From Halobacillus shinanisalinarum (lineage in GTDB: Bacteria; Bacillota; Bacilli; Bacillales; Halobacillaceae), in the NCBI RefSeq assembly GCF_022919835.1, contig NZ_CP095074.1, positions 620,001-684,000 of the forward strand: a stretch of DNA of 64,000 nt, in the 5' to 3' direction. The stretch's first letter is position 1; every line of letters starts with the position of its first letter. The notes under the pieces are model-generated. The model searched no databases, had not been told where the DNA came from, and saw only the letters and a list, made by a program, of their open reading frames with translations. This document shows, one piece after another, positions 11,937 through 37,654 of the stretch. Both the position numbers and the translations under genes were made by a program.

Positions 11937-11966
11937 AAAAAAGACAGGGAATAAAACTCCCTGTCT
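11937..11966 (-). terminator. Terminator after the ArdC-like gene
   Basis: AGACAGGGA / TCCCTGTCT arms with a short loop (ATAAAAC), followed on the minus strand by a run of T. It lies in the 73-base gap before the Toprim gene, which may therefore be transcribed at a reduced level. Confidence 0.75.
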
Positions 11967-13944
11967 AGCGTTCCATTTCAACTTTTTGCCGTTGCTTTTT
12001 ATGCTTTGGTTGGGAAGATCCCTGTTTACTTTCATCTGCTTTTTCTTCTACAGACTTGCCTTTCCTCTTTTCTCCGTTTTTCCCCTTCTGATCGCTAAAT
12101 TCCTGATCTAATGTCATTTCTACCTGGACTAAACGTTGTTGACCATATTCGGATAACGGCAGCTCTTTTAATTCCTGCAGCGATTCTTTTTTTAGTTTAT
12201 AAACGGATTCCATGCTATGTGTCTTTTCAAAGACACGCATTTGGTTCAGACGTTCTTGTCGATCGTTGCTTTCCTCTTGATCCAGTCCCTTTCCTACCTT
12301 CGGTTCAATAAAGTTCATCAACTCTTTTTTATAGGCATCTTTATAGGCTTGTTTATCGAGTTCATTCTCCCCTTTTTCCTTTTCAGATTTAGGTTCAAAA
12401 GGGCTCTCGTTTCGTTCAGTTGTGCTGACTTGCCGACGGTACATGTCACGTAGCTTCTCCGATGGTAATTTTTCCTCTTCCTGCTTTGGTTCTTTTTCGA
12501 TGGATGGTTGTGATCTTTGTAAAGAAGGGTGCTCCGGCGTTACGTTGTTTGCATCGGCTTCCTTGAATACTTCAGAAGTGATTGAAATGCCTTCAATTGC
12601 CTTCCTCATGGAAGAAGGCAATGTTTCCGGGTTCTTTTGGTGTTCGGGACTAAGAGCGACAAAGGCACCCTTGCCCTTTTCGTTAGCTTGATTAAATTTT
12701 TTGACCAGCTCATCTTGCTTGACTTGCGGATAACTGATGTCCCCTAACGGTTTGATTTCTTTTTGCTCTACCTGTAGTGTGGCTACGTCTATAAGACTTT
12801 CCATGGATACGGTTTTAACATTCTGACTCTCTTTATTTACAAGGATGATCATTTCTTGATAAGGTTTGGGATTTGGCAGTGGATCGAAGACTCCCTTTTC
12901 TTTCTCTTGGTTGTTTTCCTGCACCTGTATCTGTTGGCCCATATTCCGCTCTCTTTTTTCATTGGACGGTGTTGTCATTTTCATGTCTTTATCCCCTTCC
13001 TGTTCTTTTTCCCATGAATCTTCAATCGTTGAAATAAACTCTTTGGCCGTCGTTTGAACTTCCTGCAATAACCCTTCATAGTCCTTAAACTCATGGTCTT
13101 TCGTCCACTGATGAAGGTAATCTAGGGAATAATCGCTGGTATCAATATTGAAATAGGAGGCCACCGTATAGGCTGTCATTTCTGCCTGAAATTCCTTTTC
13201 CGGCTTGGTGTAATGATCTCGTTTTTCTTCCGTGTGGAGCTTCGCATGCGTGAGTTCATGCAACAGGCTTTTCGTATCCTGACGTTCTGAGTTCCGAGGG
13301 TTGAGGGCGACTTCACCTCTCCCGGTGTAACTCACTCCTTTGGCAGCCCCTAGCTCTTCATAAGGTTCAACGATTTGAATGTTGTTCTTATCCGCAATAG
13401 CCTCCATACCTCGACGCAACGGTTTATAGTTTTCGACCTTTCCATCGATCCATTTGTTCGGGAATATGTGAGGGAGGTCTTTTTGGGATGCACTCGTTTG
13501 CGACACATCAAAAACACTCCCGATAGAAAAAACAAGACGGCCCTCTCGTTTGTCGAGTTGACCGTCTTTAACCTGTTCCTTCTCTTGTTTGGTGGCGTGT
13601 TGTAAGGACTTCCATTCCCCTTCATTGTTTTTAAATTGCTGGCCCAATCGATTAGGTACGAGAATTTTAATGCCTTGTTCACCTTTGTTAACGGGGAACC
13701 CTTTTTCTTTCCAAAAGGCAAACGAGCCAACAGCTTCAGCACCAGAAAACTGTGAATCAATAAGCGCGGTGTTCTTGGGGGAATACCGGTAAAACTTTCC
13801 CATAAAATCCAAATACTCTTTTAGCTGATCGGGCGAATGAAAGTGGTTCGAGATACGTTCTTCCATTCCTTCTGTCAGTCTATTGATCTCCTCTTGAACC
13901 TGTTCGGGTGACTTTTTGGGATAGGTACGTTTACTTTTGGCCAT
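11965..13944 (-). CDS. ArdC-like antirestriction protein with zincin domain and long charged tail
   Basis: About 659 residues. The N-terminal ~130 residues match the ArdC ssDNA-binding domain (YSPKNTALIDSQFSGAEAVGSFAFWKEKGFPV). A zincin metallopeptidase-like domain follows with HELTHAKLH (HExxH near residue 235) and a downstream Glu-rich helix (EKEFQAEMTAYTVASYF). The rest (about 330-659) is a low-complexity charged region. ArdC proteins protect incoming conjugative DNA from host restriction. ATG 13944 (MAKSKRT) has the best spacing after GGGAGG and overlaps the upstream gene by 14 bases. The extended tail is unusual; typical ArdC proteins are about 300 residues. Confidence 0.82.
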   Translation of the reverse strand: MAKSKRTYPKKSPEQVQEEINRLTEGMEERISNHFHSPDQLKEYLDFMGKFYRYSPKNTALIDSQFSGAEAVGSFAFWKEKGFPVNKGEQGIKILVPNRLGQQFKNNEGEWKSLQHATKQEKEQVKDGQLDKREGRLVFSIGSVFDVSQTSASQKDLPHIFPNKWIDGKVENYKPLRRGMEAIADKNNIQIVEPYEELGAAKGVSYTGRGEVALNPRNSERQDTKSLLHELTHAKLHTEEKRDHYTKPEKEFQAEMTAYTVASYFNIDTSDYSLDYLHQWTKDHEFKDYEGLLQEVQTTAKEFISTIEDSWEKEQEGDKDMKMTTPSNEKRERNMGQQIQVQENNQEKEKGVFDPLPNPKPYQEMIILVNKESQNVKTVSMESLIDVATLQVEQKEIKPLGDISYPQVKQDELVKKFNQANEKGKGAFVALSPEHQKNPETLPSSMRKAIEGISITSEVFKEADANNVTPEHPSLQRSQPSIEKEPKQEEEKLPSEKLRDMYRRQVSTTERNESPFEPKSEKEKGENELDKQAYKDAYKKELMNFIEPKVGKGLDQEESNDRQERLNQMRVFEKTHSMESVYKLKKESLQELKELPLSEYGQQRLVQVEMTLDQEFSDQKGKNGEKRKGKSVEEKADESKQGSSQPKHKKQRQKVEMER

Positions 13945-14212
13945 GAGCATCACCTCCCTCGCTGATGTTCATGAGTTCTTCCATATCCTCTTCCTCATAG
14001 TTTGGATCTGTGTTTAACATCAGCTGCTTGCTCTTTTTATCGAACGGGATGAGTAAGTTTTCTTGATTGACCAAATGCTGTTCCACATCAGCCATTTCAT
14101 CATCACTCAACGTTAAGGTGTATTCCTGTTGGCCAACTTCGATCACGAGCTCTTGGTTATCCCCTAAACTTTTAAACACGCCTACTTCATAACGGCTATT
14201 AAACAACATCAT
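13931..14212 (-). CDS. Hypothetical small protein of the mobilization region
   Basis: 93 residues from ATG 14212, which follows AAAGGAGGAG at good spacing (an upstream ATG at 14233 lies before the ribosome site and is rejected). The protein is acidic, with a short beta-strand-like N-terminus (YEVGVFKSLGDNQELVIEVGQQEYTLTLSDDEM) and an Asp/Glu-rich C-terminus. It overlaps the ArdC-like gene start. It is typical of small acidic proteins in Gram-positive conjugative elements; the function is unknown. Confidence 0.6.
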   Translation of the reverse strand: MMLFNSRYEVGVFKSLGDNQELVIEVGQQEYTLTLSDDEMADVEQHLVNQENLLIPFDKKSKQLMLNTDPNYEEEDMEELMNISEGGDAHGQK

Positions 14213-14713: not shown

Positions 14714-15871
14714 CTACCTTTCTCTTTCAATATCTCGTTCCAATTTCTGATGGTCCAAGTCGTTCATAAACTGATCATAGGTTTGACCCATGGAGCGTTG
14801 AATCCTTCGCAAAGATCGTTGTAAATGAACACCCGGAGGCACAGACTTATAGGAGTGACCTGGTTCATGAATAGGAATACGTTGCCTATCATAAGCTTTC
14901 ATTTCTTGTAAGAACGCATTTCCCATTCGTTTATAGAGGTCATCCAGCTTGTTTTGTTTGTAATGCTGATAGCGTTTTTTATCCTTTGGTCCATCCCCAT
15001 AAGTTTGCTTTAATTCATTCACCTCTTTATCCAATTTGTCATGGAGCTGTCTCATGTCTTTTGAATGATATTTGTTTAAGTACCTTGATGTTAGCTCATC
15101 GATTTTCGGCCGTATTGGGTTCAATGTTTGATAGCCATAGTGCCACTGGCGTTTATCTTCAGGCAAATGATTGTACACTTCCAGGAACAAAGGCTTCATC
15201 TCTCTGTTTCTCCATTTCATACTGCTATTCTCTTTCTTTGAATTCACCATATGCTCACGGATCAAAGAGTTAATTTGATTGCGTTCCTGCGTACGATCCA
15301 TTAATCCATTCACGACTTCACTCTTCATCGCATCTAACGTTTTCGGTTTACGCTTACCTCGCCCACGAGTTGGATGGGGTTCGACCGTGGCCACATGAAT
15401 ATGAATGTTGTCCGTATTATAGTGAATGGCTGCCGACCAGACGGAACTCTCTTCTAACCCTTCTTTTTTCATCATGGCCTTCATGGATTTACGTGTTACT
15501 TGTTTCAAGGCGTCTTCATCTAAAGTGTGAGTTTTTGGATCATAAACACCTCGTTTTTGAAGCCAATCATTATTAAATGTAATCACGTCCTGCCACATAA
15601 TGCTGTTATTTTTTTGAGCCTGTTCAAACAATGATTTAATACCCTGTTTTCCTTTAACAGATAAATGATCCGACTGTTGAGTAAACAAAGCAGATGTTTT
15701 ATCTGGATCGTCCATGTAGTGATTATATAAACTAAACATGGACCTATGAGTTTCCCCCTTTCCTTTGGCCTCTTCACGGTCCACGTACCGGACGTAATCT
15801 TGAAACCCTTTCTTATTTGCAGTCACGAATTTCGTTTTTAAAACCACTCCAGGCGTTACAGTTTCACTCAT
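14714..15871 (-). CDS. MobP2-like conjugative relaxase
   Basis: 385 residues. The key motif is TDNIHIHVATVEP near residues 150-165, the paired-histidine metal site of relaxases. The N-terminal KTKFVTANKKGFQDYVRYVDREEA is typical of the MobP2 group found on pXO2-like plasmids and ICEs; the likely catalytic Tyr lies in the early YVRYVDREEA segment. It nicks oriT and carries the strand into the recipient. Its ATG overlaps the stop of the upstream accessory gene (ATGA), as expected for a relaxosome operon. The C-terminal third is basic and helical. No helicase or primase domain is fused. Confidence 0.85.
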   Translation of the reverse strand: MSETVTPGVVLKTKFVTANKKGFQDYVRYVDREEAKGKGETHRSMFSLYNHYMDDPDKTSALFTQQSDHLSVKGKQGIKSLFEQAQKNNSIMWQDVITFNNDWLQKRGVYDPKTHTLDEDALKQVTRKSMKAMMKKEGLEESSVWSAAIHYNTDNIHIHVATVEPHPTRGRGKRKPKTLDAMKSEVVNGLMDRTQERNQINSLIREHMVNSKKENSSMKWRNREMKPLFLEVYNHLPEDKRQWHYGYQTLNPIRPKIDELTSRYLNKYHSKDMRQLHDKLDKEVNELKQTYGDGPKDKKRYQHYKQNKLDDLYKRMGNAFLQEMKAYDRQRIPIHEPGHSYKSVPPGVHLQRSLRRIQRSMGQTYDQFMNDLDHQKLERDIERER

Positions 15872-17832: not shown

Positions 17833-18933
17833 TTACAGATCAATATAAGGAGCCGGGTTTACGTCCGTTCGATATTGATTTTTCGTCAATACTTCAAAGT
17901 GTAGATGGGGTCCAGTCGAGTTTCCGGTGGTCCCACACTTTCCTATTTCTTCACTTTTTTGAACGGTCTCCCCTTGATCTACTTGTACAGAATAGAGATG
18001 CGCGTAGTGACTAAATAAGTTCTCGTCATGTTTAATGATCACGCTATTTCCGTAACCCGTTCCTCCGTTGCTTACTCTGACCACTTGACCATGATCAACA
18101 CTCCGAATAGGGGTCACGGCATTTGTACAGGCAAAGTCGATCCCTCGGTGCATCGTCGATGTTCCATTGAAGGGATCACTCCTCATCCCATAGTTAGATG
18201 TTTGGTTTAAGGTTCCTGCAATCGGACGTACCCACTCTCCCGTTGGCTGTATATCTCCTTCGACAACACCTCCTTTAAGATAACGAAGAACAGCTTCCAC
18301 ATATCCAATATCGCCGTAACAAGCTTGAAGGGCAGCTGCCTCTGGACTAATGCATGAATACATCCCCGTATGCTTCAACTCTTGATACTTCATCTGAGAA
18401 AATTCGATCGCTAATTCCTTGCTATATTCGCCGTGGTTATGTTCCTTGGCGTACTCAATAAACCCTCCTCCAAAGTTGTACGCTTGAAGAGCTAGCTTCA
18501 CATCTCCCCCGGCTTTCTCTAACATATCTGCAAAATATTGAACCCCGACATCAATGCTTCGTTTGGGGTCCTCAATCGTATTGGGAGGTAACCCTAGAGA
18601 TTCGCTGGCCTGCATCACATCGTCAAGCTTCCCACCAGATTCTTGCATTGTCTTGGCCAGCAACAGCTCCACGTAATCGGAGACCCCATATTTGGCTGCA
18701 TACTTTTCAAACAATGGACGGTATTGTTCCACGGCAGTTGAAACTTGGGCGGTCCCATTCACCACATCGACCGATTGAACATCTTCACTAGCCTTACTCT
18801 TTTGAAAGCCGATTAACGTAGCGATAGCCGATGCATATAAGACCATTTGAAGGAGAAAAAGAACCATGACCAATCCAACCAACCCTAGCCACACTTTTCT
18901 CGGGACAAGCCCCAGCACTAACGACCATGGCAT
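17833..18933 (-). CDS. Bifunctional wall hydrolase: lysozyme-like plus M23 peptidase
   Basis: 366 residues. A membrane anchor (about 14-38) precedes a CwlT-type lysozyme-like domain (about 65-205: LLAKTMQESGGKLDDVMQ, with the catalytic-type Glu, and LALQAYNFGGGFIEYA). The C-terminal domain (about 230-360) is an M23/LytM metallopeptidase with MHRGIDFA (HxxxD) and GPHLHFEV (HxH). It opens the wall for the conjugation channel, the VirB1 role. CwlT and its relatives usually carry an NlpC/P60 domain in place of M23. ATG 18933 follows GGAGGTG and is 4 bases after the VirB4 stop. Confidence 0.88.
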   Translation of the reverse strand: MPWSLVLGLVPRKVWLGLVGLVMVLFLLQMVLYASAIATLIGFQKSKASEDVQSVDVVNGTAQVSTAVEQYRPLFEKYAAKYGVSDYVELLLAKTMQESGGKLDDVMQASESLGLPPNTIEDPKRSIDVGVQYFADMLEKAGGDVKLALQAYNFGGGFIEYAKEHNHGEYSKELAIEFSQMKYQELKHTGMYSCISPEAAALQACYGDIGYVEAVLRYLKGGVVEGDIQPTGEWVRPIAGTLNQTSNYGMRSDPFNGTSTMHRGIDFACTNAVTPIRSVDHGQVVRVSNGGTGYGNSVIIKHDENLFSHYAHLYSVQVDQGETVQKSEEIGKCGTTGNSTGPHLHFEVLTKNQYRTDVNPAPYIDL

Positions 18934-18936
18934 GAG

Positions 18937-20852
18937 TTAAGCACCTCCTCCAAATAAAGCTAATTCTTCGTCCGATACCTCCACGTTAAAGCGAATATTT
19001 TCAACCGCACGGATGCTCAGCATTGTATCTCCGGTCTGCAAATACGGGATCTCATGTAACTCACTTTGACTTAATTGACCGGCGAAGATTTGCTGCATCA
19101 TATCTAAGTTGTTGCTATCCTGCTGCATAATGATCTTGTATTGCGTTAGCTCAAAGAGCTTCTTAATTTCTTCTACCATGCTTTGATCGGATCCCTCGGG
19201 TACAAAGTCGCGAATCGTATGACTCGCGTACAACAAACTGCCAAAGTACTTCCTAGCCTCCCGGCTAAATTTCGTGAGAAATTCAAGGGCACTTTCACTT
19301 TTCTTTTTCGTGTTGATAATGTGGTGAGCTTCGTCCATTAAGATCAAATAACGAACCGCATCTTCAAAAGCCAATTCTCCCCGGTTGTAGGCGTCGAATT
19401 GAGGAGCACCGTTCGTGAGCATCGAATCCCAAAGGAGATTCAACACATTAAACAATTGGGCCTGAAAGACTTCTGCACGCATTTGGGACAAACCACGAAG
19501 TGTGAAGGTGACGACTTGTTGTTCGTTAAAGTGTTCAATCGTAGATGTGCCATTAAACAAGTGAGCGTAGGTTTCGACAAGGTTACGAATATTTAACTCA
19601 ATGCTTTCGAGACGCCTCTTTCGTTCCGGACTCACCTGTTCCCATTGCTTCCCTCCCTTGATGTCTTCATATAGCTGATCTTGAATAAAGGTAAGGAAAT
19701 CGGAAAAGATCGGATAATGATGCACCGGTTGCTGGGTAATGTTTGAATCCTCATTCCAGAGCCCAATAGTTTCATAGAGTTTTCGTAAAAGATTCTCATA
19801 CTCTTTAAGTTCACTATCATTAGCTTCCGGGGCCAGGAACTTATAGAACGTCGTCAGCTTGGATAAGTGCTGTGTAAATGATGTGGTTTCATCTTCTGCT
19901 GTCCGATATACTTGCAACGGATTAATCACCCCGTCGGATCCATCTAAGGATATTTGTTTTCCACCCAATGCTTCCGTTAATTCCGCAAATTCGCCCGTTA
20001 CATCAAAGGTTCGTACTTTGTATCCTTTAATAGCATTATCGAGCATGATTTTCTTGAGGGTAGTTGATTTTCCAGCACCCATGGCTCCAACCATCACGCC
20101 ATTATAACTTTTTCGTTGGTTATCGCGATGAAACAAATCAAAAACCACATTCCCCCCAGTCAAAGTTGTTCCATAAAACGTTCCGTAAGGATCATGTAAA
20201 CTCGTAAAGTGAAACGGAAAACCGCCAGCTAATCCTAACGCTGGGATGGGCTGCCCTTCCCGTTTATTACGATACGTGGATTGGTCGCTGTAACTTGATA
20301 GAAGAGCTTTCCATTCGTACTCTTGTTCATTTAAGAAAATCGATCCTCGAAAATTCTCGTCTTGCAATGTTGATAGGACAGCCTTCACTTTATCCTCTAA
20401 TTCAATCTTCGTTGGTGCACTCACGTAATGACGGAGATGCACACGCTTAACGATTTCTCCTTGCTCTGACACTTGATTGTAGAGTTCTCTTAAATCGTCG
20501 TAATTGTTTTGGGCTTCGATGGTACCAGCATTGTCTTTTTCATTGATCATTCGAGAGCTTTGTTCCGCCATCCCTTTGTTTAGCCCATCGCGTACTTTGT
20601 ACCGATCATCCGATACAACATCCATGGTTGTGATCACATTCTCCATATTGAAGATCGGCTCTAACCAGAAGTCTGATACATTTTTGGGAAAGGCATACAC
20701 ATGAACACATGCCTCGTACCCATCCCCTTTTCGGATAAAAGACTCCTGGAAGTTAATCCCCCTTGTGGTTGGATGTGAGCCAGCAAATACGGATTGTAGC
20801 CCTTAGCCTTTGTTTTTTCTTGATCCGTTTTTGGTTGAAAAAATTGAAACAC
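18937..20852 (-). CDS. VirB4-type conjugation ATPase, apparent frameshift near the N-terminus
   Basis: About 638 residues once one G is added to the G5 run (minus strand, 20758-20762). The N-terminal piece (GTG 20852, ending PQGG) then continues as INFQESFIRKGDGYEACVHVYAFPKN into the large frame. Without the base the frame stops near 20661. Motifs: Walker A GAMGAGKSTT, Walker B-like YLILMDEAHHI, and a late QQDSNNLDMM segment typical of VirB4/TraE. It powers substrate transfer and pilus assembly with VirD4. It lies 6 bases from the gene before it. If the shift is real, transfer would be disabled unless translation starts at an internal codon. Confidence 0.85.
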
Positions 20853-20858
20853 GGTTCT

Positions 20859-21296
20859 TTACCCCCTCTTTTCCAGTTTGGAATTTTGGTTATAAAGCTT
20901 ATAGAGTAAATCAAGTTTCTTCTCTTCCGTTAAAGGAAGTAATGGGGCAATCTGGCCGAGATAACGCTGGCAGTTGTTCCGGTATTCGGAGAGTTGCTTG
21001 ATGCTGGAGGCATACATATATAAATAAAACTCCCGGTTCGTTCGGTGTTGTTCTAAAAAGACTAATTCATCACGTTTTCTTAATAAGAAACGTTCATATA
21101 AGGGAGAAGTATTTTGTTTGACCCTCCGATCCACCGCGTCAAGCTGTTGCTGCATATCCACCGGAAAATTCATCGACATAATTTTAATGTCAGAGGCAAA
21201 GGACTGAAAGAACTTAGCCATCACCATGATGTCGTATTCCGTTTCATCCATAGAAGGTGAGTATATATCCTTGCTTTGCAGCTGCATCATATCCAT
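20859..21296 (-). CDS. Hypothetical protein, conjugation gene cluster
   Basis: 145 residues, without a membrane segment, mostly helical (VMAKFFQSFASDIKIMSMNFPVDMQQQLDAV...). It lies between the DUF5592-like membrane protein and VirB4, where pXO2-type clusters encode a small conserved protein. It overlaps the preceding gene by 10 bases. The sequence may be the detached N-terminal part of a TraC-like/VirB4 partner, since FPVDMQ and KYI/YMYASS motifs occur in VirB4 N-domains; this is tentative. Confidence 0.55.
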   Translation of the reverse strand: MDMMQLQSKDIYSPSMDETEYDIMVMAKFFQSFASDIKIMSMNFPVDMQQQLDAVDRRVKQNTSPLYERFLLRKRDELVFLEQHRTNREFYLYMYASSIKQLSEYRNNCQRYLGQIAPLLPLTEEKKLDLLYKLYNQNSKLEKRG

Positions 21297-21493: not shown

Positions 21494-21796
21494 TTAGGAC
21501 TCTCCTTTCTCTTTTTCTTCCGTATCCATAGAACAATAGGTAAGGCGATCCCGAAACACAGCTAAACTCAAAGCCTTCACCATACGCATTTTCGGGTTAG
21601 ATTTTGGCCGCACAAGCCATGTCAACATCAAGATGATCCAAAAGATTGCGTAATACCAAATCAAAGAGGGATGGACGACATAACGCAAGGTAAAACCGAT
21701 CCCTCCCAGAATTAAAACGACAAGTAAGTCTGTCAGGTAAAACAGACGGTTGATCTTCAGTTCACTTCCGATTTCAGAAGGAATTTTATAATGCAA
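21494..21796 (-). CDS. DUF5592-like membrane protein
   Basis: 100 residues with two adjacent transmembrane segments (about 24-42 and 47-66), a conserved-looking WLVRPKSNPKMR loop, and a cytoplasmic C-terminus. Size, topology and place before VirB4 match the DUF5592/PrgI-like small membrane proteins of Gram-positive type IV secretion systems (VirB3 analogues). Confidence 0.65.
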   Translation of the reverse strand: MHYKIPSEIGSELKINRLFYLTDLLVVLILGGIGFTLRYVVHPSLIWYYAIFWIILMLTWLVRPKSNPKMRMVKALSLAVFRDRLTYCSMDTEEKEKGES

Positions 21797-21819: not shown

Positions 21820-21858
21820 AAAAACGCCAACAAGGTTAAGAGCCTCGTTCGCGTTTTT
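21820..21858 (-). terminator. Possible weak terminator after the VirB6-like gene
   Basis: AAAACGC / GCGTTTT outer arms with an imperfect inner stem; overlaps the last ~23 bases of the VirB6-like gene. Its position inside an otherwise continuous operon suggests partial attenuation. Confidence 0.45.
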
Positions 21859-23734
21859 GGATTTTATGTTTCCAGTTTTCCGTAGTATTGCGTGATAGGT
21901 TATAAGTGCGTTTAGCACCCTGAACCTTGTGATTGTTGTTAAATCGGTCCTTCACCCGGTCTTTCATATATTGACCCATAGTGCGCTGTTCGGTGCGATG
22001 CTGATTCGGCATGGGAATATCGTCTGTACTTGTTGGAGCCTTCGATTGATCTCCATGAATTGCTTGTTGACTTTTCTGCCCCTGTTCAACGAACGGCATC
22101 ACGCTTGAGCGTTGATCTACTGGCTCCTTAGATTCTATGGAAGCAGCCACTTGTCGATTGCCTTGTTTCATTTCCTCATGTAGGCGAGGGGTTCGGCTGT
22201 CATTAGGCGATTGTTGCTTTCGTTCTTCGTCCCGCATTTCTTCATGAATAGAAGGTGTGGAGACACCAGATACATGATCTGATTGTTGCTCTTGATTCCG
22301 TGGAATAGAAGAAGCTTCACCTAGTTGTTGACCCCGTTTGCTTTTCTGTAAGGCGGGCTGAGAGTGTTGTTCAGAACCCTTATCGGACTGAATAATTCCA
22401 GATTTTTGATCAAGTTTCTCTCCAAAGTCTTTTCCTGGTGTTCCTTGAGTAGGACTAGGACTTTCAACATTCTGAGAAGATCCTTTTCCTTTACCACCAG
22501 CCATACCGGCAAGGGCTCCAGCTGCACCAGCTCCTGAATGCATCACCGCACTAGTTCCTCCACTAGCTACAGCTCCAACAGCCTTCTTCGCTGGTGGACC
22601 AATCGTTTTCGATGCCAAGTAACCGCCCATGGCTACATGCCAGGCATTTTTTAGTCCAGCATCAATACCAAAGAGCTTCTGGACAATGTTTGGTCCATCG
22701 ATTACAGCCAAACTCCCTGCCACAAGGGCAATTAAATAAGCTATACCATCTAAGTGGTCACCGATAAAAGTGGTGTAATACATATAGACGCGTAAACTTA
22801 AGAAAATCATAATCAGCGATGCAAAAATGCTGCCAATGTTTTTAATGATCGCTTTAAGGCGTTGACCGGTAGAAATATCAGCATACGCCATAATAAGCGC
22901 CACGATGTGATTAAATCCAAGCTCGAAACAAAGTTTCGCGACCTTAATCGAAATCAAGACCATCGTAAAAGCCATAACCCCGAGCGTCACTATCGCGGTG
23001 AACCACTCCACATCCCAGCGATAATAGTGTTCGGGTAAAAAATCAAATAGACTACTTTTGCCTAGCTCAACTAGACCCTCTTCGCCGTTTGATTCCAAAC
23101 CAACTTTGTTCATTAGAATTTCTTTTCCTTCAGATGATAGTTGTTCACCATTTGCTTTTTCAAACTCTCTCGTGATCGTCTCATTTATAGAAATTTTGTC
23201 GATGTTATCTGGGCTGACGTGATGTCGTTTTTCTATATCCGATGTTTCCCATCCAGTTTCATCATAGACTGCAATGTCTGTAATATACTTCATCATCACC
23301 CGATCTGAAGTTGTAAAAGACTCTGTATCAACCTGGGCAACATCGATTGCATCTCCAGTAAATTCATCGACTTTCCCCATCCCAAATGTTAAAAGAGATA
23401 TCGTCATGATCGAGATAAAGATGTTCATGGGGATCTCCGCCCGATTTTTCTCCTTATTGAAGATCAAACGCAACCCGATTATTGCTAAAGAAAAAGCCAA
23501 CAAAATATAAAGGACCGGTTGAATCGTTTCCAGAAAGGATTTCACTGGTTCACTCCTAAAGAAATTAGTCAACGTCAGCACACTATCTACCATACCTTCT
23601 AGACTATCTACAATCATTTTCAGGAAAAGTATAATCCCCCATCCCATGATGCGGAGACCCGAACTAAAAATGTTGTTGGTATGAAGGACTTCTGAAAATT
23701 GGAGGAGTTTCTCTAATAGTTCTTCATCCGACAT
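21836..23734 (-). CDS. VirB6-like polytopic channel protein
   Basis: 632 residues. The N-terminal ~380 residues hold six to eight membrane segments. The region after ~390 is a Gly/Ala stretch and then a long polar, Gln/Ser-rich tail with three similar short units (STPSIHEEMRDEERKQQ, SRTPRLHEEMKQGNRQ). This layout matches the CD3337/EF1877-type mobilome membrane proteins that serve as VirB6/TrbL analogues in Gram-positive conjugation. It follows the small 23750-23944 gene with 15 bases between. Confidence 0.75.
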   Translation of the reverse strand: MSDEELLEKLLQFSEVLHTNNIFSSGLRIMGWGIILFLKMIVDSLEGMVDSVLTLTNFFRSEPVKSFLETIQPVLYILLAFSLAIIGLRLIFNKEKNRAEIPMNIFISIMTISLLTFGMGKVDEFTGDAIDVAQVDTESFTTSDRVMMKYITDIAVYDETGWETSDIEKRHHVSPDNIDKISINETITREFEKANGEQLSSEGKEILMNKVGLESNGEEGLVELGKSSLFDFLPEHYYRWDVEWFTAIVTLGVMAFTMVLISIKVAKLCFELGFNHIVALIMAYADISTGQRLKAIIKNIGSIFASLIMIFLSLRVYMYYTTFIGDHLDGIAYLIALVAGSLAVIDGPNIVQKLFGIDAGLKNAWHVAMGGYLASKTIGPPAKKAVGAVASGGTSAVMHSGAGAAGALAGMAGGKGKGSSQNVESPSPTQGTPGKDFGEKLDQKSGIIQSDKGSEQHSQPALQKSKRGQQLGEASSIPRNQEQQSDHVSGVSTPSIHEEMRDEERKQQSPNDSRTPRLHEEMKQGNRQVAASIESKEPVDQRSSVMPFVEQGQKSQQAIHGDQSKAPTSTDDIPMPNQHRTEQRTMGQYMKDRVKDRFNNNHKVQGAKRTYNLSRNTTENWKHKIQKRERGS

Positions 23735-23962: not shown

Positions 23963-26500
23963 CTATAGTTCGGCTTGTTCTCTTTCCTCAGTAACCGTTG
24001 CATCTTTTTCCTGACTTAATTTATCAATTTGTTTACGAATATGGCCATAAACTTGCCGACTGATTTCCTGGCCATCCCCCAACATTTTCAAATTGTATAG
24101 AAAAACCTCCAACGGCTCTTCATTCATCTCTTCCTCACTGTGATCCAGTTGAGGAGCAATATGCTTTTGAATCATGTGAAGTGTAACCGCATCGAAAAAC
24201 TGACCAACCTTTTGTTGTTGCTTCCATGAGTCTTCATGAAATGGCTGACCTTCGTCTGTATGTTCTTCATCGGCCTTTATAGACCTCTTTCTTTCCTTTG
24301 CAGCTATAGCTTTGAAAGTAAAATCGATCACTAAGTCCTGCGGTCGAACACCCCGATGCGGTGTATCAATCTCTTCTTCCGTAATCGCCTTACTCGTATC
24401 AAAGTCCTGACTCAAGTACGTATGCGCATATTTCATGCTGTGCTTGCCCGTATTGTAAATGGGAAACGCTCGGATTTTCCTCCCTCTCTTATCGCGACGT
24501 TTCAATACACGACGGACTACGGTGTCCCCTTCTTCTAACTCCTGGAGTTCATTGGCCGTTAAGAGATCCCGCCCTTCAGTGCTTTCAGTTTTTGATTTGT
24601 CGAGCGAAAAGGTTGATCCTGAACGGGTCTGCGTATTTAGTGTTTGTTTGCCCAGTTTGGAAGAAAAATAAGATGCGGAATCATAATCCGCACTTAAAAT
24701 ATAAATCTCATTCCCACAGTTTCCACGGATGGTTGCCTGTCCATCTTCTCCATATAATTCTTTTAATTGCGCGTAGGACTGAACAACCAAATGAAAACGA
24801 ATGTTTCGCCCCAGACACACTGTAATCTTATTATCCATATCCGCAATGGCCGGCATATTACCAAATTCATCTAACATAAATACCACTTCACGCAAGCACT
24901 TTTGCCCTTTGGCAATCGCTGCATTTTTTGATAAGACGTAATACAACTGACTCACAAAGATCGATGGGATCGCGTGAGTCGATGTATCGTAGTCCGGAGT
25001 AACCATGAAAAGCGCAATCGGTTTGGTAAAATAACAGATCTGATAAACCGTTAGATCGTGAACAGAACCGGATGGGAGGGAAAAGTAAACCTTCCCAGAT
25101 TCCTCATCCATTTCCTTCACTTGAACCTTGAGCAGACTTCTTTCTTTTCCTTCTAGGGGTTTCCATGGCTCTTCGGGTTGCTTCCGTTTTTGTTTCGCGG
25201 ATAACGGCTCATGATCTTGCCATATCGTAAGGGTATCTCCCGGCTTCAATTTGGAGGAGAAGTTGATCGTCCATGTTCCACTCTCTCCAGACTGATTGAC
25301 TTCAGTTGCACCATCGGGGAACATAACATACACTTTGGAAAACGGTGTACCCCGACCTTTCATGGATTGTCCAAAACCAACCTTCTTCAAATCCAATGAG
25401 TTCTTCGCTGTCATCTTAGCTGTCTCACTCATGGTAAATTTCGTCAAACCATTCATGGCGGTCGTAAAGATACTGGATCGTGTATTTCCTTTGGAAAAGT
25501 TACTCGTCGCATACTGTTCCTTAGCCACATGCGCTTGCGGCAGCTCTTGAAAGTATTGATCAAGCGCATTATACTCCTGACCATTATCATCAATTTCGTT
25601 TTTCGTTCCTAGTTCAGATAGCATATTGGCAACAGCGTACATGGTGATTTTATCTTCGGTTCCTTCGGTGATACTTTTTTCAGTAATTGCGAGGATCATC
25701 GCATTAACAAGCGATTTTGCGGAATCATCCCACATGGGCTCTTTCGCTTGAGGATTGTGATACAACATATGGGTTATTGTTTCACAAAGCGTTTGAGCTG
25801 TTGAATAATCTCCATCCAAATAGGATTGTTTAACAAGTTCTAGCAAATTAAAGCTCATGCTTTGCATCGGATTCATCAAATTGAGCACTTCCACTTCATA
25901 GCCTCGACTCTCCAGTGTTTGTCGGCTTGAGGCGAATAGCTCCCCTTTGGGATCATTGATGACTAAGGAAGGCTGATCTTCCGAACGGGAATAGGCATCG
26001 ATGGTTGGGATCACATAGGTTTGTCCCTTCCCACTTCGCGTTGTTCCGATAATCAAGTTATTCACTGGCGATGGATCAATGTATGCCTTATCTGCTTTTC
26101 TAGCTAACACAGGACCTCCCTGGCCCTGGTAGGTTTGCGTACGATCGGGTATCGATTTATATTGTTTTTTGATTTCCTTGCGTGTCGCAAAACGCTGGGA
26201 CCCTTTTTCGTCCGTACCAATAGGATGGAAGTTACTGCGCAGTTTATAGTTGATATACGCGATACCCACCAGACCAATCACGGATGCTGTGGCGTAAAAC
26301 GATGGATAGTGTTTAAAGTGAAAATCTGTGAGGTACGCTGCCTTCATGACGAACGGTTGACTAAACTCCGGAAAAGTTTGAACCGTGGCCCACATCGCAA
26401 ATCCCAAGTTCAATATAAATGTGGCTGCGAGTATCGTGATTATAAAAAGGCAGATGCTCAATGGGATAAGCACCTGCCTTTTAGCGACGAATGATTTCAA
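23963..26500 (-). CDS. VirD4/TraG-type coupling ATPase
   Basis: 845 residues. Two N-terminal membrane segments (about 12-35 and 60-80) are followed by a TraG/VirD4 motor: Walker A IGTTRSGKGQTYV (about 150-163), the LVINDPKGELF motif, Walker B VVFMLDEFGNMP, and the GRNIRFHLVVQSYAQL motif. It links the relaxosome to the secretion channel. An insert of ~120 residues (about 375-495, beta-rich: GTWTINFSSKLKPGDTLTIW) separates the Walker motifs and is unusual in size. ATG 26500 is followed by a polar C-terminal tail. Confidence 0.92.
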   Translation of the reverse strand: MKSFVAKRQVLIPLSICLFIITILAATFILNLGFAMWATVQTFPEFSQPFVMKAAYLTDFHFKHYPSFYATASVIGLVGIAYINYKLRSNFHPIGTDEKGSQRFATRKEIKKQYKSIPDRTQTYQGQGGPVLARKADKAYIDPSPVNNLIIGTTRSGKGQTYVIPTIDAYSRSEDQPSLVINDPKGELFASSRQTLESRGYEVEVLNLMNPMQSMSFNLLELVKQSYLDGDYSTAQTLCETITHMLYHNPQAKEPMWDDSAKSLVNAMILAITEKSITEGTEDKITMYAVANMLSELGTKNEIDDNGQEYNALDQYFQELPQAHVAKEQYATSNFSKGNTRSSIFTTAMNGLTKFTMSETAKMTAKNSLDLKKVGFGQSMKGRGTPFSKVYVMFPDGATEVNQSGESGTWTINFSSKLKPGDTLTIWQDHEPLSAKQKRKQPEEPWKPLEGKERSLLKVQVKEMDEESGKVYFSLPSGSVHDLTVYQICYFTKPIALFMVTPDYDTSTHAIPSIFVSQLYYVLSKNAAIAKGQKCLREVVFMLDEFGNMPAIADMDNKITVCLGRNIRFHLVVQSYAQLKELYGEDGQATIRGNCGNEIYILSADYDSASYFSSKLGKQTLNTQTRSGSTFSLDKSKTESTEGRDLLTANELQELEEGDTVVRRVLKRRDKRGRKIRAFPIYNTGKHSMKYAHTYLSQDFDTSKAITEEEIDTPHRGVRPQDLVIDFTFKAIAAKERKRSIKADEEHTDEGQPFHEDSWKQQQKVGQFFDAVTLHMIQKHIAPQLDHSEEEMNEEPLEVFLYNLKMLGDGQEISRQVYGHIRKQIDKLSQEKDATVTEEREQAEL

Positions 26501-29391: not shown

Positions 29392-30417
29392 TCAGGGGTC
29401 CCCTACAATCCTTAGATTTGATTTGAATTGTAAGATTTGTATTGCTGATCTTCTCCCTTCACTAATAGCAATAATATCCCCTTTTGATAGGTCGTACCTG
29501 TAATCAATTGCTTCAAGAATATCCTCTAGAGATCGTTTTAACTTTATTCCAAGTTCAATGGTTCGGGCCGTACTCTCAAGACTTGGTTGTTCCTTCGGTT
29601 TTTCGTCTGTTTGTTGTCGGTCACGTGGTTTAAACCACTCTGGCAAGACTTCTTGGTTATATGGTCGTTTGGAGAACGAAGCCCGGCTATTTTGCTGATT
29701 TTTATACTCAACCTCTTCACCCTGAGCCTGATCAAGACTTTCCACACCTTTGTTCACCCAAGAGTGGAGAATACTTTTGACATAGCCCCAGCTTGGTTTA
29801 TTGCGGTCCAAAGAACGTTTCATGGCTTCAATAACCATTTGCTCTCCAAGATCCTCAATCCAAGTTAAGAGCTCCTCAGAGATTTGAGGACGAATCATGC
29901 CAAAGTTAGTTTGATAAAATTGAATCGCATCCCCCTGTGCGTGCCCAGTTGTAGAAGTAGGTATAAATTCTTCTACATTCTTAACTTCTTTAAGTTCTTG
30001 TTCATTCTTGAATGTGTCTTTTTGCTGTCCTTTTGATGGTAGGGGGCTGTCTTTTTGCTGGCTTTCTGGTGTTGTTTTGTTGTCGTCATCTTCTTCGTTA
30101 GATTGATAGATTGCCCAGTTGTCAACGGTTATAACACTATATTTGTTGGTGGAATGGATGGTTATTACACCGTCCTCCTGTAAGATTTTCAGATAATCTC
30201 GAACTGTTGATTCATTCATATTTAATTCGGCAGAAGCTTTTTTTCTGCCAAAGATAAATTGACCAGGCTCCAGTTGAACCTTCTGTCTTCCTACCCTTGT
30301 TTCTGCTTCCTTATGACTTGATTTTGTTAAACAGTATATAAAAACCTTCAACATCTTTTCATTCTCAAATATTTCACTATGAAGGATCTTTCGATGTAAT
30401 TTTATCCACCCTTGCAA
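29392..30417 (-). CDS. DnaD-domain replication initiator/helicase loader-like protein
   Basis: 341 residues. The N-terminal ~110 residues form a winged-helix module of the phage replisome-organizer type (WIKLHRKILHSEIFENEKMLKVFIY... GQFIFGRKKASAELNMNESTVRDYLKILQEDGVITI). A DnaD-like helical domain follows (about 165-230: YQTNFGMIRPQISEELLTWIEDLG... WGYVKSILHSWVNKGV). Such proteins load the host helicase at an element origin, which would allow autonomous replication after excision. The linker between the two is long and polar. The start is ATG 30417 behind GGAGGGGT. Confidence 0.8.
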   Translation of the reverse strand: MQGWIKLHRKILHSEIFENEKMLKVFIYCLTKSSHKEAETRVGRQKVQLEPGQFIFGRKKASAELNMNESTVRDYLKILQEDGVITIHSTNKYSVITVDNWAIYQSNEEDDDNKTTPESQQKDSPLPSKGQQKDTFKNEQELKEVKNVEEFIPTSTTGHAQGDAIQFYQTNFGMIRPQISEELLTWIEDLGEQMVIEAMKRSLDRNKPSWGYVKSILHSWVNKGVESLDQAQGEEVEYKNQQNSRASFSKRPYNQEVLPEWFKPRDRQQTDEKPKEQPSLESTARTIELGIKLKRSLEDILEAIDYRYDLSKGDIIAISEGRRSAIQILQFKSNLRIVGDP

Positions 30418-31657: not shown

Positions 31658-31798
31658 CTATTTAGTGCTAGTCTGATACTCTTCCTTCTTATCGAAGTAA
31701 GGGGCTAAAGCATGTTGAAAAGCTTTCTTGGCTGGGACATCACCAAACGTTTCTTTCACAAGCTTAAGTGGCGACTGCTTTTGTTTTTGTTTAGCCAT
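31658..31798 (-). CDS. Small hypothetical protein (46 aa)
   Basis: 46 residues starting MAKQKQKQSPLKLVKETFGDVP. ATG 31798 follows GAGGTGAT; an upstream in-frame start at 31852 is less well placed. It is basic at the N-terminus and lies between two XRE genes, similar to small excisionase- or antirepressor-sized products, though nothing in the sequence proves either. Confidence 0.5.
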   Translation of the reverse strand: MAKQKQKQSPLKLVKETFGDVPAKKAFQHALAPYFDKKEEYQTSTK

Positions 31799-31867
31799 AT
31801 CATCACCTCGTTTTATGTGTATGCTACGGATCAATGAGGACAGCCCTATCAATCTTTAGATAATTAG

Positions 31868-32092
31868 CTAAACAACATCATTGGACGAAGTGTCCAAATC
31901 TGGATTTAAAAAAAGATCATCAACAGTGTGATCTAATTCATCTGCAATTTTTTTCGCTAAATCAATACCAGGATTTCGAGATCCCTTTTCAATCTTGTAA
32001 TAATACGATGCCGAAATACCAATCTTTCCTGCTAATGAATCTACATCCTTCAAGCCTTTTTCCAAGCGAACAGACTTAAGTTTAATTCTCAA
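31868..32092 (-). CDS. Small XRE-family regulator
   Basis: 74 residues, nearly all one Cro/C1 helix-turn-helix domain (SVRLEKGLKDVDSLAGKIGISASYYYKIEKGSRNPG). TTG 32092 is the start, 6 bases after GGAGG. It is transcribed away from the ImmR-like gene, in the position of the early gene that is divergent to immR in ICEBs1-like elements. A TTGGAC-N5-GTCCAA palindrome lies in its 3' end (31881-31897). Confidence 0.75.
   Translation of the reverse strand: MRIKLKSVRLEKGLKDVDSLAGKIGISASYYYKIEKGSRNPGIDLAKKIADELDHTVDDLFLNPDLDTSSNDVV
31881..31897. promoter_or_regulatory. Intragenic copy of the TTGGAC/GTCCAA palindrome
   Basis: Perfect TTGGAC-N5-GTCCAA within the last codons of the small XRE gene. The same spacing and core occur twice in the divergent promoter region 32.1 kb, so it is likely a further repressor site. 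Confidence 0.5.
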
Positions 32093-32107
32093 ATTATCCC
32101 TCCTCCA

Positions 32108-32209
32108 TTGGACAATTCGTCCTGTTAAGGAAAAGCTTAATGGACATAACGTCCATTGTCAATAAAAAATCCCCAATTTGTCCAATATTATTTATCAAAT
32201 TGGACAAAT
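32108..32209. promoter_or_regulatory. Operator array in the divergent regulator promoter
   Basis: Between the two XRE genes: TTGGAC-AATTC-GTCCTG (32108-32124), ATGGAC-ATAAC-GTCCAT (32140-32156), and an 11-base inverted repeat ATTTGTCCAAT...ATTGGACAAAT (32176-32209). All share GGAC/GTCC half-sites. This is the expected binding region for an ImmR-like repressor that controls both directions. Confidence 0.65.
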
Positions 32210-32256
32210 AGGGTAAAATTAAATTATATTATAATGTCGTAAACGGAGGGTTGCCG

Positions 32257-32679
32257 ATGGATTTTCATAAAAGGTTAACGCTTTTGAGGAAGAAAAAGAA
32301 ATTATCTAGAGAAGACCTTGCAAAGAAACTTGAATTATCTTACTCAGCAATTTCAAAATATGAATCTGGCAATCGTCAACCTGACTATAATACACTGAGG
32401 GAAATTTCTGACTTCTTTAACTGCTCAATTGATTACTTATTAGGAAAAGAGCAATATCAATATAACGATACTCACAGTAACTTTGATCCTATTAGGGAAA
32501 CGAATAACCTCTTTATAAAATACGGAGTTGAGGATGCGGGTTTTTGGGATATTGAAAAATGGAAAGAGATGTCTCCTGAAGATATTCGTAGTTTAGAGGA
32601 TTATTTTGATTATTTATATAATAAGAGTAGGGATAAAAATCTTAAGAGTAAAGATCATAAAGAGGTTGATGATATTTAA
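32257..32679 (+). CDS. ImmR-like XRE repressor
   Basis: 140 residues from ATG 32257, 6 bases after GGAGGG (a TTG at 32251 lies too near). A Cro/C1 helix-turn-helix fills residues 5-62 (RLTLLRKKKKLSREDLAKKLELSYSAISKYESGNRQPDYNTL in outline). The C-terminal ~70 residues are acidic and helical, with the YGVEDAGFWDIEKW segment. It is followed by an ImmA-like protease gene, the immR-immA pair known from ICEBs1 and related phages, so it probably keeps the element silent. The TATAAT-like box at 32230 may be its promoter. Confidence 0.82.
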   Translation: MDFHKRLTLLRKKKKLSREDLAKKLELSYSAISKYESGNRQPDYNTLREISDFFNCSIDYLLGKEQYQYNDTHSNFDPIRETNNLFIKYGVEDAGFWDIEKWKEMSPEDIRSLEDYFDYLYNKSRDKNLKSKDHKEVDDI

Positions 32680-32914: not shown

Positions 32915-32937
32915 AATTAGCAAGGACGGTGCTTATC

Positions 32938-33429
32938 TTGTATTTTCCAACTTATACAACAACCCATTTAGAGGATTGGGTCTCGGATTGGTATTTAAAA
33001 TTACATATAACTATACCCTCACAACTCATGGCTTATACCATCGCTCGGAAGTACGAAACTTTTTTACACCGTAAGCCTGTATCCCCACACTATGAAGTGT
33101 TTGGAAGGTTCCGGGCCATCACGGTGGATTCAAGGCGCACTAAAGAAGTTCAACGTGAGCAATTTTATCATGAGTTTTGTCATCTTCTTAGACATGTAGG
33201 GAAACAAACCATGATGCCTCCTGCATTTCGTGAGCTCCAGGAACGAGATGCCCGGCATTTTACTTTTTATGCAGCCCTTCCCTACCATATGATTTCTCAA
33301 TACGATATTAACAACCCTAACCTACTAGATCAGTGGGTAAAAGATTTTAGAGTGACAACTGAGCTTTGTAGGAAACGCCTTCAGCAGATTAAAGAAAGGG
33401 AAAATCGATATATATTGAATAAACAATGA
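32938..33429 (+). CDS. ImmA/IrrE-family metalloprotease
   Basis: 163 residues. The zinc motif HEFCH (HExxH) lies near residue 82, followed by RHFTFYAALPYHMI with the downstream part of the active site. The N-terminus (TTTHLEDWVSDWYLKLHI) is typical of the family. It should cleave the neighbouring ImmR-like repressor when activated, releasing the element. TTG 32938 is preferred over GTG 32929: AAGGA at 32922 is 11 bases from TTG but only 2 from GTG. The gap to immR (258 bases) is larger than usual and contains its own SOS-type promoter. Confidence 0.85.
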   Translation: MYFPTYTTTHLEDWVSDWYLKLHITIPSQLMAYTIARKYETFLHRKPVSPHYEVFGRFRAITVDSRRTKEVQREQFYHEFCHLLRHVGKQTMMPPAFRELQERDARHFTFYAALPYHMISQYDINNPNLLDQWVKDFRVTTELCRKRLQQIKERENRYILNKQ

Positions 33430-37371: not shown

Positions 37372-37403
37372 CCCCTCGGGCTTTCTTACGGTTTGCAAAT
37401 GGT
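37372..37403 (+). repeat. Element-end repeat, copy 2, at the gerE junction
   Basis: CCCCTCGGGCTTTCTTACGGTTTGCAAATG-type sequence shared with 33447-33490. Identity between the copies ends at GTTTGCAAATG, precisely where the gerE coding sequence begins to match its family. This defines the element/chromosome border to within a few bases. Confidence 0.65.
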
Positions 37404-37559
37404 ACTCATAGCATTGGAAATGTGATTGCGAACTGTTTTCTCAGAAATGAACAGTTCACTTGCAATTTCCTTTGTTGTTTTGTCTTGCACTAGAAGCTCG
37501 AAAACTTCTCGCTCCCGCTTGGTTAGAATTTGTGTTGGCCTGTAGCCGTCTTCCTTCAC
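37386..37559 (-). pseudogene. gerE: GerE, truncated by the mobile element
   Basis: GTG 37559 (behind AAGGAGGGG) opens a 57-codon frame. Residues 1-51 (LTKREREVFELLVQDKTTKE and the SEKTVRNHISNAM end) are nearly identical to B. subtilis GerE, the last mother-cell transcription factor of sporulation (74 residues, LuxR-type helix-turn-helix). After HISNAM the family continues with QKLGVKGRSQA; here the sequence switches to STICKP and stops, with codons from the element end. The dimerization helix is therefore lost. A sigma-K-like promoter lies upstream. The missing 3' part is not elsewhere in the window. It could be rejoined if the element excises. Confidence 0.88.
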
Positions 37560-37617
37560 AAGCGTACCCCTCCTTGTTGTCTAGAGCTGATGCATGAGGG
37601 GAATTATTTAGTCATGA

Positions 37618-37645
37618 TATCTTATGTGGAAAAACATCACCCTGT
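37618..37645 (-). promoter_or_regulatory. Sigma-K-like promoter of gerE
   Basis: On the minus strand an AC pair and CATAAGATA (CATANNNTA) are 17 bases apart, close to the sigma-K consensus (AC, ~16, CATANNNTA). It is about 60 bases before the gerE start. gerE is a sigma-K gene in B. subtilis. Confidence 0.5.
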
Positions 37646-37654
37646 GCCGGCCGT

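Follow-up and report, generated by a model that had tools for sequence, protein, structure and literature searches.

A 125.7 kb element with conjugation genes, matched ends and a candidate excision factor splits gerE in Halobacillus shinanisalinarum

The gene gerE of Halobacillus shinanisalinarum, which acts late in sporulation, is split by a 125.7 kb element (genome positions about 531,700-657,410) that carries genes for conjugation. The stretch of DNA analysed here, hereafter the window, is 64,000 nucleotides long (positions 620001-684000 of a 4,887,025-bp contig) and contains the right-hand 37 kb of the element at window positions 1-37410, while the remaining 88 kb lie to its left. The extent of the element is defined by the two halves of gerE, by half-sites at its ends and by a copy in a sister species. 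We consider it likely that the element is an integrative and conjugative element (ICE) whose excision would be driven by a recombination directionality factor (RDF), both during transfer and in the sporulating mother cell. Conserved features of the ends suggest that excision during spore formation would be precise.

The 5' part of gerE (codons 1-51 of 74) corresponds to a 57-aa ORF with a GTG start on the minus strand of window positions 37386-37559. As a preliminary description of this DNA had recognized, GerE residues 1-51 (...EKTVRNHISNAM) are followed there by element sequence, namely six element-encoded residues and a stop. In a genome search with B. subtilis GerE as query, residues 2-54 matched this ORF at 79% identity (E = 2.5e-21). 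The same description proposed looking beyond the left edge for the missing 3' segment and an adjacent recombinase, and both are present: residues 42-74 are encoded, at 91% identity, on the minus strand of genome positions 531591-531689, next to a serine recombinase gene. This 3' piece is 88.3 kb past the left edge of the window, and the insert is therefore about 125.7 kb. The insertion point is at gerE codons 47-49, with gene halves at both ends on the same strand. A full-length gerE elsewhere, which had been named as evidence against the interpretation, was not found in the single-contig genome; the 14 other matches to the query (E <= 10) comprise the 3' piece and 13 sequences that are at most 48% identical.

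When the flanks of the element are joined, they encode a 74-aa GerE, and they align across the junction with all nine intact congener loci (short side at least 69 nt). In a survey of 11 genomes of the genus, gerE is intact (74 codons) in nine and split in two, these being H. shinanisalinarum and the sister species (G001). Upstream of the gene, a sigma-K-like promoter (CACA...CATAAGATA; window 37618-37646, minus strand), also noted earlier, includes the -10 sequence CATANNNTA and an upstream CACA, as judged by eye against the sigma-K consensus. Outside the element, proteins encoded on the left are of the MarR, Asp/Glu racemase, GerM and RNase PH types; on the right, a two-component pair is followed by succinate dehydrogenase proteins. 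Apart from the two-component pair, this arrangement is presumably that around gerE in B. subtilis.

Comparison of the junctions revealed an attachment core, CACATTTCCAATGC (window 37411-37424, minus strand), whose counterpart at the 3' gerE junction is CACATTTCAAATGC, so that CACATTTC[C/A]AATGC is common to both. On the element side, the core is adjoined by a half-site of 20 bases (window 37390-37409, plus strand). Its counterpart at the opposite end of the element (genome 531692, minus strand) has the inverse orientation, and the two are identical at 16 of 20 positions. The predicted circle junction forms a dyad centred on AA in which 17 of 26 positions are paired, a value reached by 3 of 5000 shuffles. 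The dyad at the gene-side junction has just 10 paired positions, reached by 3518 of 5000 shuffles. Abe and colleagues predicted AA as the crossover dinucleotide of gin, a gerE element of B. cereus (PMC5595907). A joint pattern from both ends (19 specified bases) has a best match of 14/19 inside the element; because the pattern was derived from the ends themselves, only the absence of good internal matches is informative. The 125.7 kb between the gerE halves behaves as one element with matched ends, and it has an integrase and attachment sites at both ends, as is expected of an ICE. A tandem or composite insertion was tried as a separate candidate, and the half-site scan yielded no good internal match for it.

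The gene adjoining the 3' part of gerE encodes a large serine recombinase of 507-515 aa with Resolvase, Recombinase and Zn-ribbon domains. It shares 97% identity with its counterpart in the sister species and 54% with P0093 of the B. cereus group, which we take to be GirC. Two of its four PDB sequence matches are YokA, presumably the SprA protein of SP-beta. In a scan of one genome per species, 21 recombinase loci were detected, of which two are distant (26-29% identity) and 19 are 51-73% identical; the closer loci are in Bacillales records and one labelled Roseburia. Eighteen of these 19 loci, in 17 genomes, were searchable (L046 was left out). gerE is split in 16 of the 17 genomes and intact in one, Sporolactobacillus laevolacticus; 15 of the 16 split cases also yielded the 3' half, and in nine genomes the two halves share a contig and strand and are separated by 5 to 52 kb. 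The S. laevolacticus recombinase relative (L060) is ~5 kb from the intact gerE, which might reflect insertion at another site or a gene that stayed behind. Across an evenly drawn sample of the order, the recombinase is present in 13 of 397 genomes at E <= 1e-110, and a gerE piece is in the short flank of 11 of these carriers, which include H. shinanisalinarum and, by coordinates, at least five others of the 17 genomes above. Within the family, 3 of 44 genomes carry the recombinase. Judged by these locations, the recombinase family is one that targets gerE.

In the sister species, a 107.9 kb element splits gerE at the identical site, and ~78 kb of it is collinear with the H. shinanisalinarum element. 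The arrangement of the backbone and both ends is conserved, and the two elements differ elsewhere in their cargo. Identity between them is 95.5% over the largest block (35 kb), whereas the two flanks are 89.0% and 91.6% identical. The difference is a hint of exchange since the divergence of the hosts, with unequal constraint as another possible explanation.

The gerE elements of other hosts vary in type. Head, portal, terminase or tail genes mark the ones in Halobacillus litoralis, Bacillus methanolicus and Perspicuibacillus as prophages. A mini-element of 5.3 kb in Lederbergia keeps the recombinase and the RDF candidate, and another genome (G036) has a mini-element of about 4.7 kb. Among 19 genomes, MobL and a coupling protein are found inside a gerE element only in H. 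shinanisalinarum and the sister species. Bacillaceae bacterium Marseille-Q3522 has both genes on one contig that is unplaced relative to gerE. In the record Roseburia sp. 1XD42-34 (contig C76), a MobL gene with one in-frame TGA is 17 kb inward of the 5' part of gerE, and the coupling protein had no match in that genome. Likeness to V. chiguensis indicates that the host of this last element is probably a Virgibacillus relative.

The preliminary description had called the element conjugative, with an ImmR/ImmA control unit, and a relaxase, a coupling protein, further transfer genes and an ImmR/ImmA-like pair are all found. The transfer genes in the window are on the minus strand. A MobL/MobP2 relaxase (14714-15871) scores over the cut-off in both Pfam and NCBIfam, and a VirD4-like coupling protein of the CD1115 family (23963-26500) and a pLS20_p028-family conjugation membrane protein (21836-23734) score over their NCBIfam cut-offs. 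The relaxase and coupling protein exceed curated cut-offs in the sister element as well. Domain matches on the same strand identify a DUF5592 protein among the transfer genes (21494-21796), a VirB1-type lysozyme/M23 cell-wall hydrolase (17833-18933), an ArdC-N/IrrE-like protein (11965-13953) and a DnaB_2/replication-initiation-like protein (29392-30417).

A VirB4-like ATPase (18937-20700, minus strand), which scores below its NCBIfam cut-offs, has 587 aa compared with 637-640 aa in four related modules, that of the sister species among them, and thus the 5' end of its gene appears frame-disrupted in this copy. The gene preceding it (20859-21296, minus strand) is also frame-disrupted, with a 145-aa frame compared with 211-225 aa in four related modules. 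Alignment of this region (window 20661-21296) with the sister element shows single-base length differences at two places, one of them in a G run, and the disruptions may be real or may be (homopolymer) sequencing errors. All 12 transfer proteins compared have counterparts in the sister element; lengths agree within 14 residues for 10 of the 12, and the exceptions are the VirB4-like protein (587 versus 640 aa) and the product of the preceding gene (145 versus 211 aa).

Part of the cargo is related to metals. A P-type (E1-E2) ATPase that probably transports metal is encoded at window positions 701-2785 (minus strand; domain match), and the proteins scanned include three P-type ATPases (one with heavy-metal domains), ArsB, ArsA-type and ArsR-type proteins, CopC/CopD, a cation efflux protein, CcmF and a rhodanese. 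Metal- and sulfur-related functions within 531.7-657.4 kb thus comprise arsenic, copper, P-type ATPases, cytochrome c biogenesis and rhodanese. A probable IS66-type transposon, judged from ORFs, is at about 560-562 kb. No phage structural families were found among the 39 of 124 element ORFs (>=90 aa) that were scanned with Pfam.

The MobL/VirD4 backbone was observed twice more in the H. shinanisalinarum chromosome (C1:2.59-2.61 Mb and 1.84-1.86 Mb; loci L112-L119), with 78-90% DNA identity in aligned blocks, and neither the gerE recombinase nor the 46-aa RDF candidate was found in 80 kb around each extra copy. Such further copies are what might be expected if a small gin-like element had been invaded by an unrelated conjugative island and by metal-resistance islands, in which case the conjugation genes would not move the whole unit. 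The distance of 118 kb between the recombinase and the RDF/ImmR end is consistent with such a history, as are resolvase fragments inside the element. We regard this composite origin as unlikely, since the backbone and both ends are collinear in the sister species, the element has no internal attachment half-site and no other full-length resolvase-domain protein, and the RDF/ImmR genes adjoin the transfer genes. Moreover, a swap of backbones between integration modules would still leave the present unit an ICE. The resolvase-domain proteins of the element consist of one that is full-length and three fragment matches at 544-546 kb. Small-resolvase pieces at genome positions 544094-544524 and 545883-546056 are probably remnants of older insertions.

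Whether the split gene retains a function can be addressed through its pattern of substitutions. The last 23 codons of 16 gerE 3' fragments have a pN/pS of 0.07, with pS saturated at 0.83, and 10 intact genes have a value of 0.045. Between H. shinanisalinarum and the sister species, gerE shows three synonymous and no nonsynonymous codon changes, and its 3' half differs from two intact congeners by eight and five synonymous codons, again with no nonsynonymous differences. The 3' fragment has no start codon of its own, yet it is intact in both species. These patterns are supportive of purifying selection on 3' halves that would be untranslated until rejoined, and so speak for a gene that is put back together. 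As part of the divergence predates insertion, the test lends support without being conclusive.

A contrary reading is that the element killed gerE, so that late coat gene expression is lost, or the host does not sporulate, and the halves are remnants. The transfer genes are partly frame-disrupted, so the element may be decaying. We nonetheless judge a dead gerE to be quite improbable, given the intact 3' half in two species, the low pN/pS of fragments across genera (albeit with saturated pS) and the purely synonymous changes between the sister species. In addition, sigK is uninterrupted in this genome and matches the sigma-K model over the family cut-off, and even the 5.3 kb Lederbergia element keeps the recombinase and the RDF candidate.

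Comparison of gerE elements points to a likely excision factor. An ImmR-like repressor (HTH_3; window 32251-32679, plus strand) and an ImmA-like metallopeptidase (Peptidase_M78; 32929-33429, plus strand) were identified by domain matches and are shared with other gerE elements. Divergent from the ImmR-like gene is a gene for a 74-aa HTH protein, recognized from sequence (31868-32092, minus strand). It is just upstream of the gene for the 46-aa candidate RDF (31658-31798, minus strand), a protein conserved across gerE elements. GGAC/GTCC palindrome-like repeats, seen by eye at window positions 32092-32251 between the ImmR-like and 74-aa HTH genes, are likely operators.

Comparison of the element's ORFs with eight other gerE elements (E <= 1e-4) showed that the recombinase is common to all eight, whereas the small frame at window positions 31658-31852 was found in six, the ImmR-like protein in five and the ImmA-like protein in four. 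A more sensitive search detected the 46-aa protein (ATG at 31798) inside all 14 complete gerE elements, including prophages and mini-elements, with E values of 3e-37 to 0.031 in the 13 other than our own. It was not found in nine partial loci (L042-L046, L048, L049, L052 and L057), and at E <= 0.05 it was absent from L055, from L060 and from 31 of 34 viral contigs. A profile search retrieved 157 proteins of this family; the 120 listed include none with a function name and no B. cereus-named entry, and most are nameless. A second search for relatives retrieved one unnamed protein. As far as sequence can indicate, the 46-aa protein is our best candidate for the excision factor and likely has this role.

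A promoter-like motif, GGNNNGT[CA]C-N14-CATA, precedes the RDF candidate (window 31820-31846, minus strand) and was recognized by comparing upstream regions; the block GGNNNGTCC is in this promoter region. The pattern GT[CA]C-N14-[CA]ATA starts 39-46 nt before the RDF start codon in all 15 core sequences (the 14 complete elements and L053), when 0.06 are expected from shuffles, a count that overstates independence because the motif was noticed before counting and close relatives are included (our own element and that of G001, and G014 and G021). Three homologues on viral contigs that yielded no gerE fragment (L140, L154 and the weak match L141) lack the GTCC block and keep CATA, and a fourth (L164) has the GTCC block and CATA with one base changed.

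As a predicted -10 element, CATA would be appropriate for sigma factors of the mother cell, and the -35-like block agrees with neither the sigma-E nor the sigma-K consensus. Among 19 regions ahead of RDF-like genes, no canonical match to either consensus is clearly beyond shuffles, the best scores being reached by 26 of 200 (sigma-E) and 46 of 200 (sigma-K). The extended motif has five matches in the H. shinanisalinarum genome and the reversed control has 14, so it is not a common host promoter.

Regions upstream of the recombinase gene were also scored (15 regions, with 50 loci unscored). A LexA-like GAAC-N4-GTTC box is at genome positions 533364-533375 (L017:13364-13375), and among the scored regions such a box occurs only in H. 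shinanisalinarum and the sister species. These two also have a sigma-E-like sequence that agrees at 13 of 15 positions, a score attained by 3 and 2 of 100 shuffles; scores in the other 13 regions are reached by 15 to 100 of 100 shuffles.

Such a LexA-like box, together with an ImmR/ImmA pair divergent from the RDF gene in a manner resembling ICEBs1, would also be compatible with an ordinary ICE that excises only for vegetative transfer, through ImmR/ImmA or the SOS response, with gerE rebuilt only by chance loss and outside any sporulation programme. Nevertheless, gerE mini-elements and prophages from other genera have retained the RDF candidate and its motif, and what these elements share is the gerE target; the split gene also appears to be under purifying selection. 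Also, gin, which occupies the same site and has a related recombinase, is controlled by sporulation (PMC5595907). We therefore find excision confined to transfer a poor explanation and improbable.

The preliminary description mentioned that gerE elements had been reported before, and gin of B. cereus ATCC10987 is a genuine precedent (PMC5595907). GirC and GirX excise gin in sporulation, which rebuilds a functional gerE (PMC5595907). The gene girX (BCE4620), for a 42-aa RDF, is further into the element than the ImmR/ImmA-type pair (BCE4623-4624) that adjoins the 5' part of gerE (BCE4626) (PMC5595907). Our element and gin share the interrupted gerE codons (47-49), the core, same-strand halves, a related large serine recombinase and the predicted AA crossover, and both have ImmR/ImmA-type genes near the 5' part of gerE with a small-protein gene (girX or the RDF candidate) further in (PMC5595907). 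The 46-aa candidate and the 42-aa GirX occupy the same relative position, which makes the candidate a putative counterpart of GirX (PMC5595907). However, gin is 28.6 kb in length and is described there without conjugation genes, whereas our element is 125.7 kb and has a MobL/T4SS module; gin also encodes three serine recombinases (girA, girB and girC), compared with one full-length protein and three fragments here (PMC5595907). Its authors left open how gin moves and proposed that the ImmR/ImmA genes might be what is left of a conjugative ancestor (PMC5595907).

Other systems resemble the element in part. SP-beta in spsM and skin in sigK also use a recombinase, an RDF and attachment sites to reconstitute a mother-cell gene (PMC6957869), but they are phages or phage remnants, and our element carries conjugation genes. 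Abe and colleagues equipped ICEBs1 with the SP-beta unit, and the resulting element inserted itself into spsM (PMC6957869). This chimera is likewise an ICE driven by a phage-type recombination unit in a sporulation gene, but it is a laboratory construct, while our element appears natural and is in gerE (PMC6957869). The ICEBs1 xis promoter is described as controlled by ImmR/ImmA, and our element similarly has an ImmR-like gene beside its excision candidate; ICEBs1, however, uses trnS-leu2, and the integration module here is of the gerE type. The MobP2, CD1115-VirD4 and pLS20_p028 matches over NCBIfam cut-offs are shared with pLS20-type/MobL modules, but our element has an integration module of the gerE type, and its backbone is also found elsewhere in the genome without one. 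Prophages in gerE, of which one in B. glycinifermentans is named in PMC5595907, have the same site, recombinase family and RDF family, and the H. litoralis prophage shares ImmR/ImmA with our element at 54-60%. They differ in having head, portal, terminase or tail genes where our element has transfer genes.

Under the interpretation we favour, the recombinase would integrate the circle at gerE codon 47-49 using AA as the central dinucleotide, and excision would require the 46-aa RDF. In vegetative cells, ImmR/ImmA-type control would hold the RDF down and release it when the element transfers by conjugation. During sporulation, a promoter read by the host would turn on the RDF in the mother cell, the element would leave, and the 74-aa GerE would be rebuilt before sigma-K uses it. 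The forespore would keep the element, which would be inherited through the spore. One switch could thereby serve both the spread of the element and the spores of its host.

More tentatively, and as a possibility that falls short of probable, we propose that the element is a natural ICE with one recombination unit and two exits. One exit would be vegetative conjugation under ImmR/ImmA control, and the other would be the rebuilding of gerE in the mother cell through a noncanonical GGNNNGT[CA]C-N14-CATA promoter dedicated to the excision factors of gerE elements in many genera. The unit itself may have been passed between phages, islands and conjugative elements.

In the literature searched, which covered few subscription papers, we came across no natural conjugative element described in gerE or in any other gene for sporulation. 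The element described here is a natural one at the gin site that still has transfer genes, and a conjugative form had been guessed by the gin authors. It suggests that interruption of sporulation genes is not only a habit of phages or islands, and that a single small gene is where phages, mini-elements and an ICE employ a common recombination unit. Through the conserved 46-aa protein and the promoter-like motif, the putative excision switch can be tested directly in many genera.
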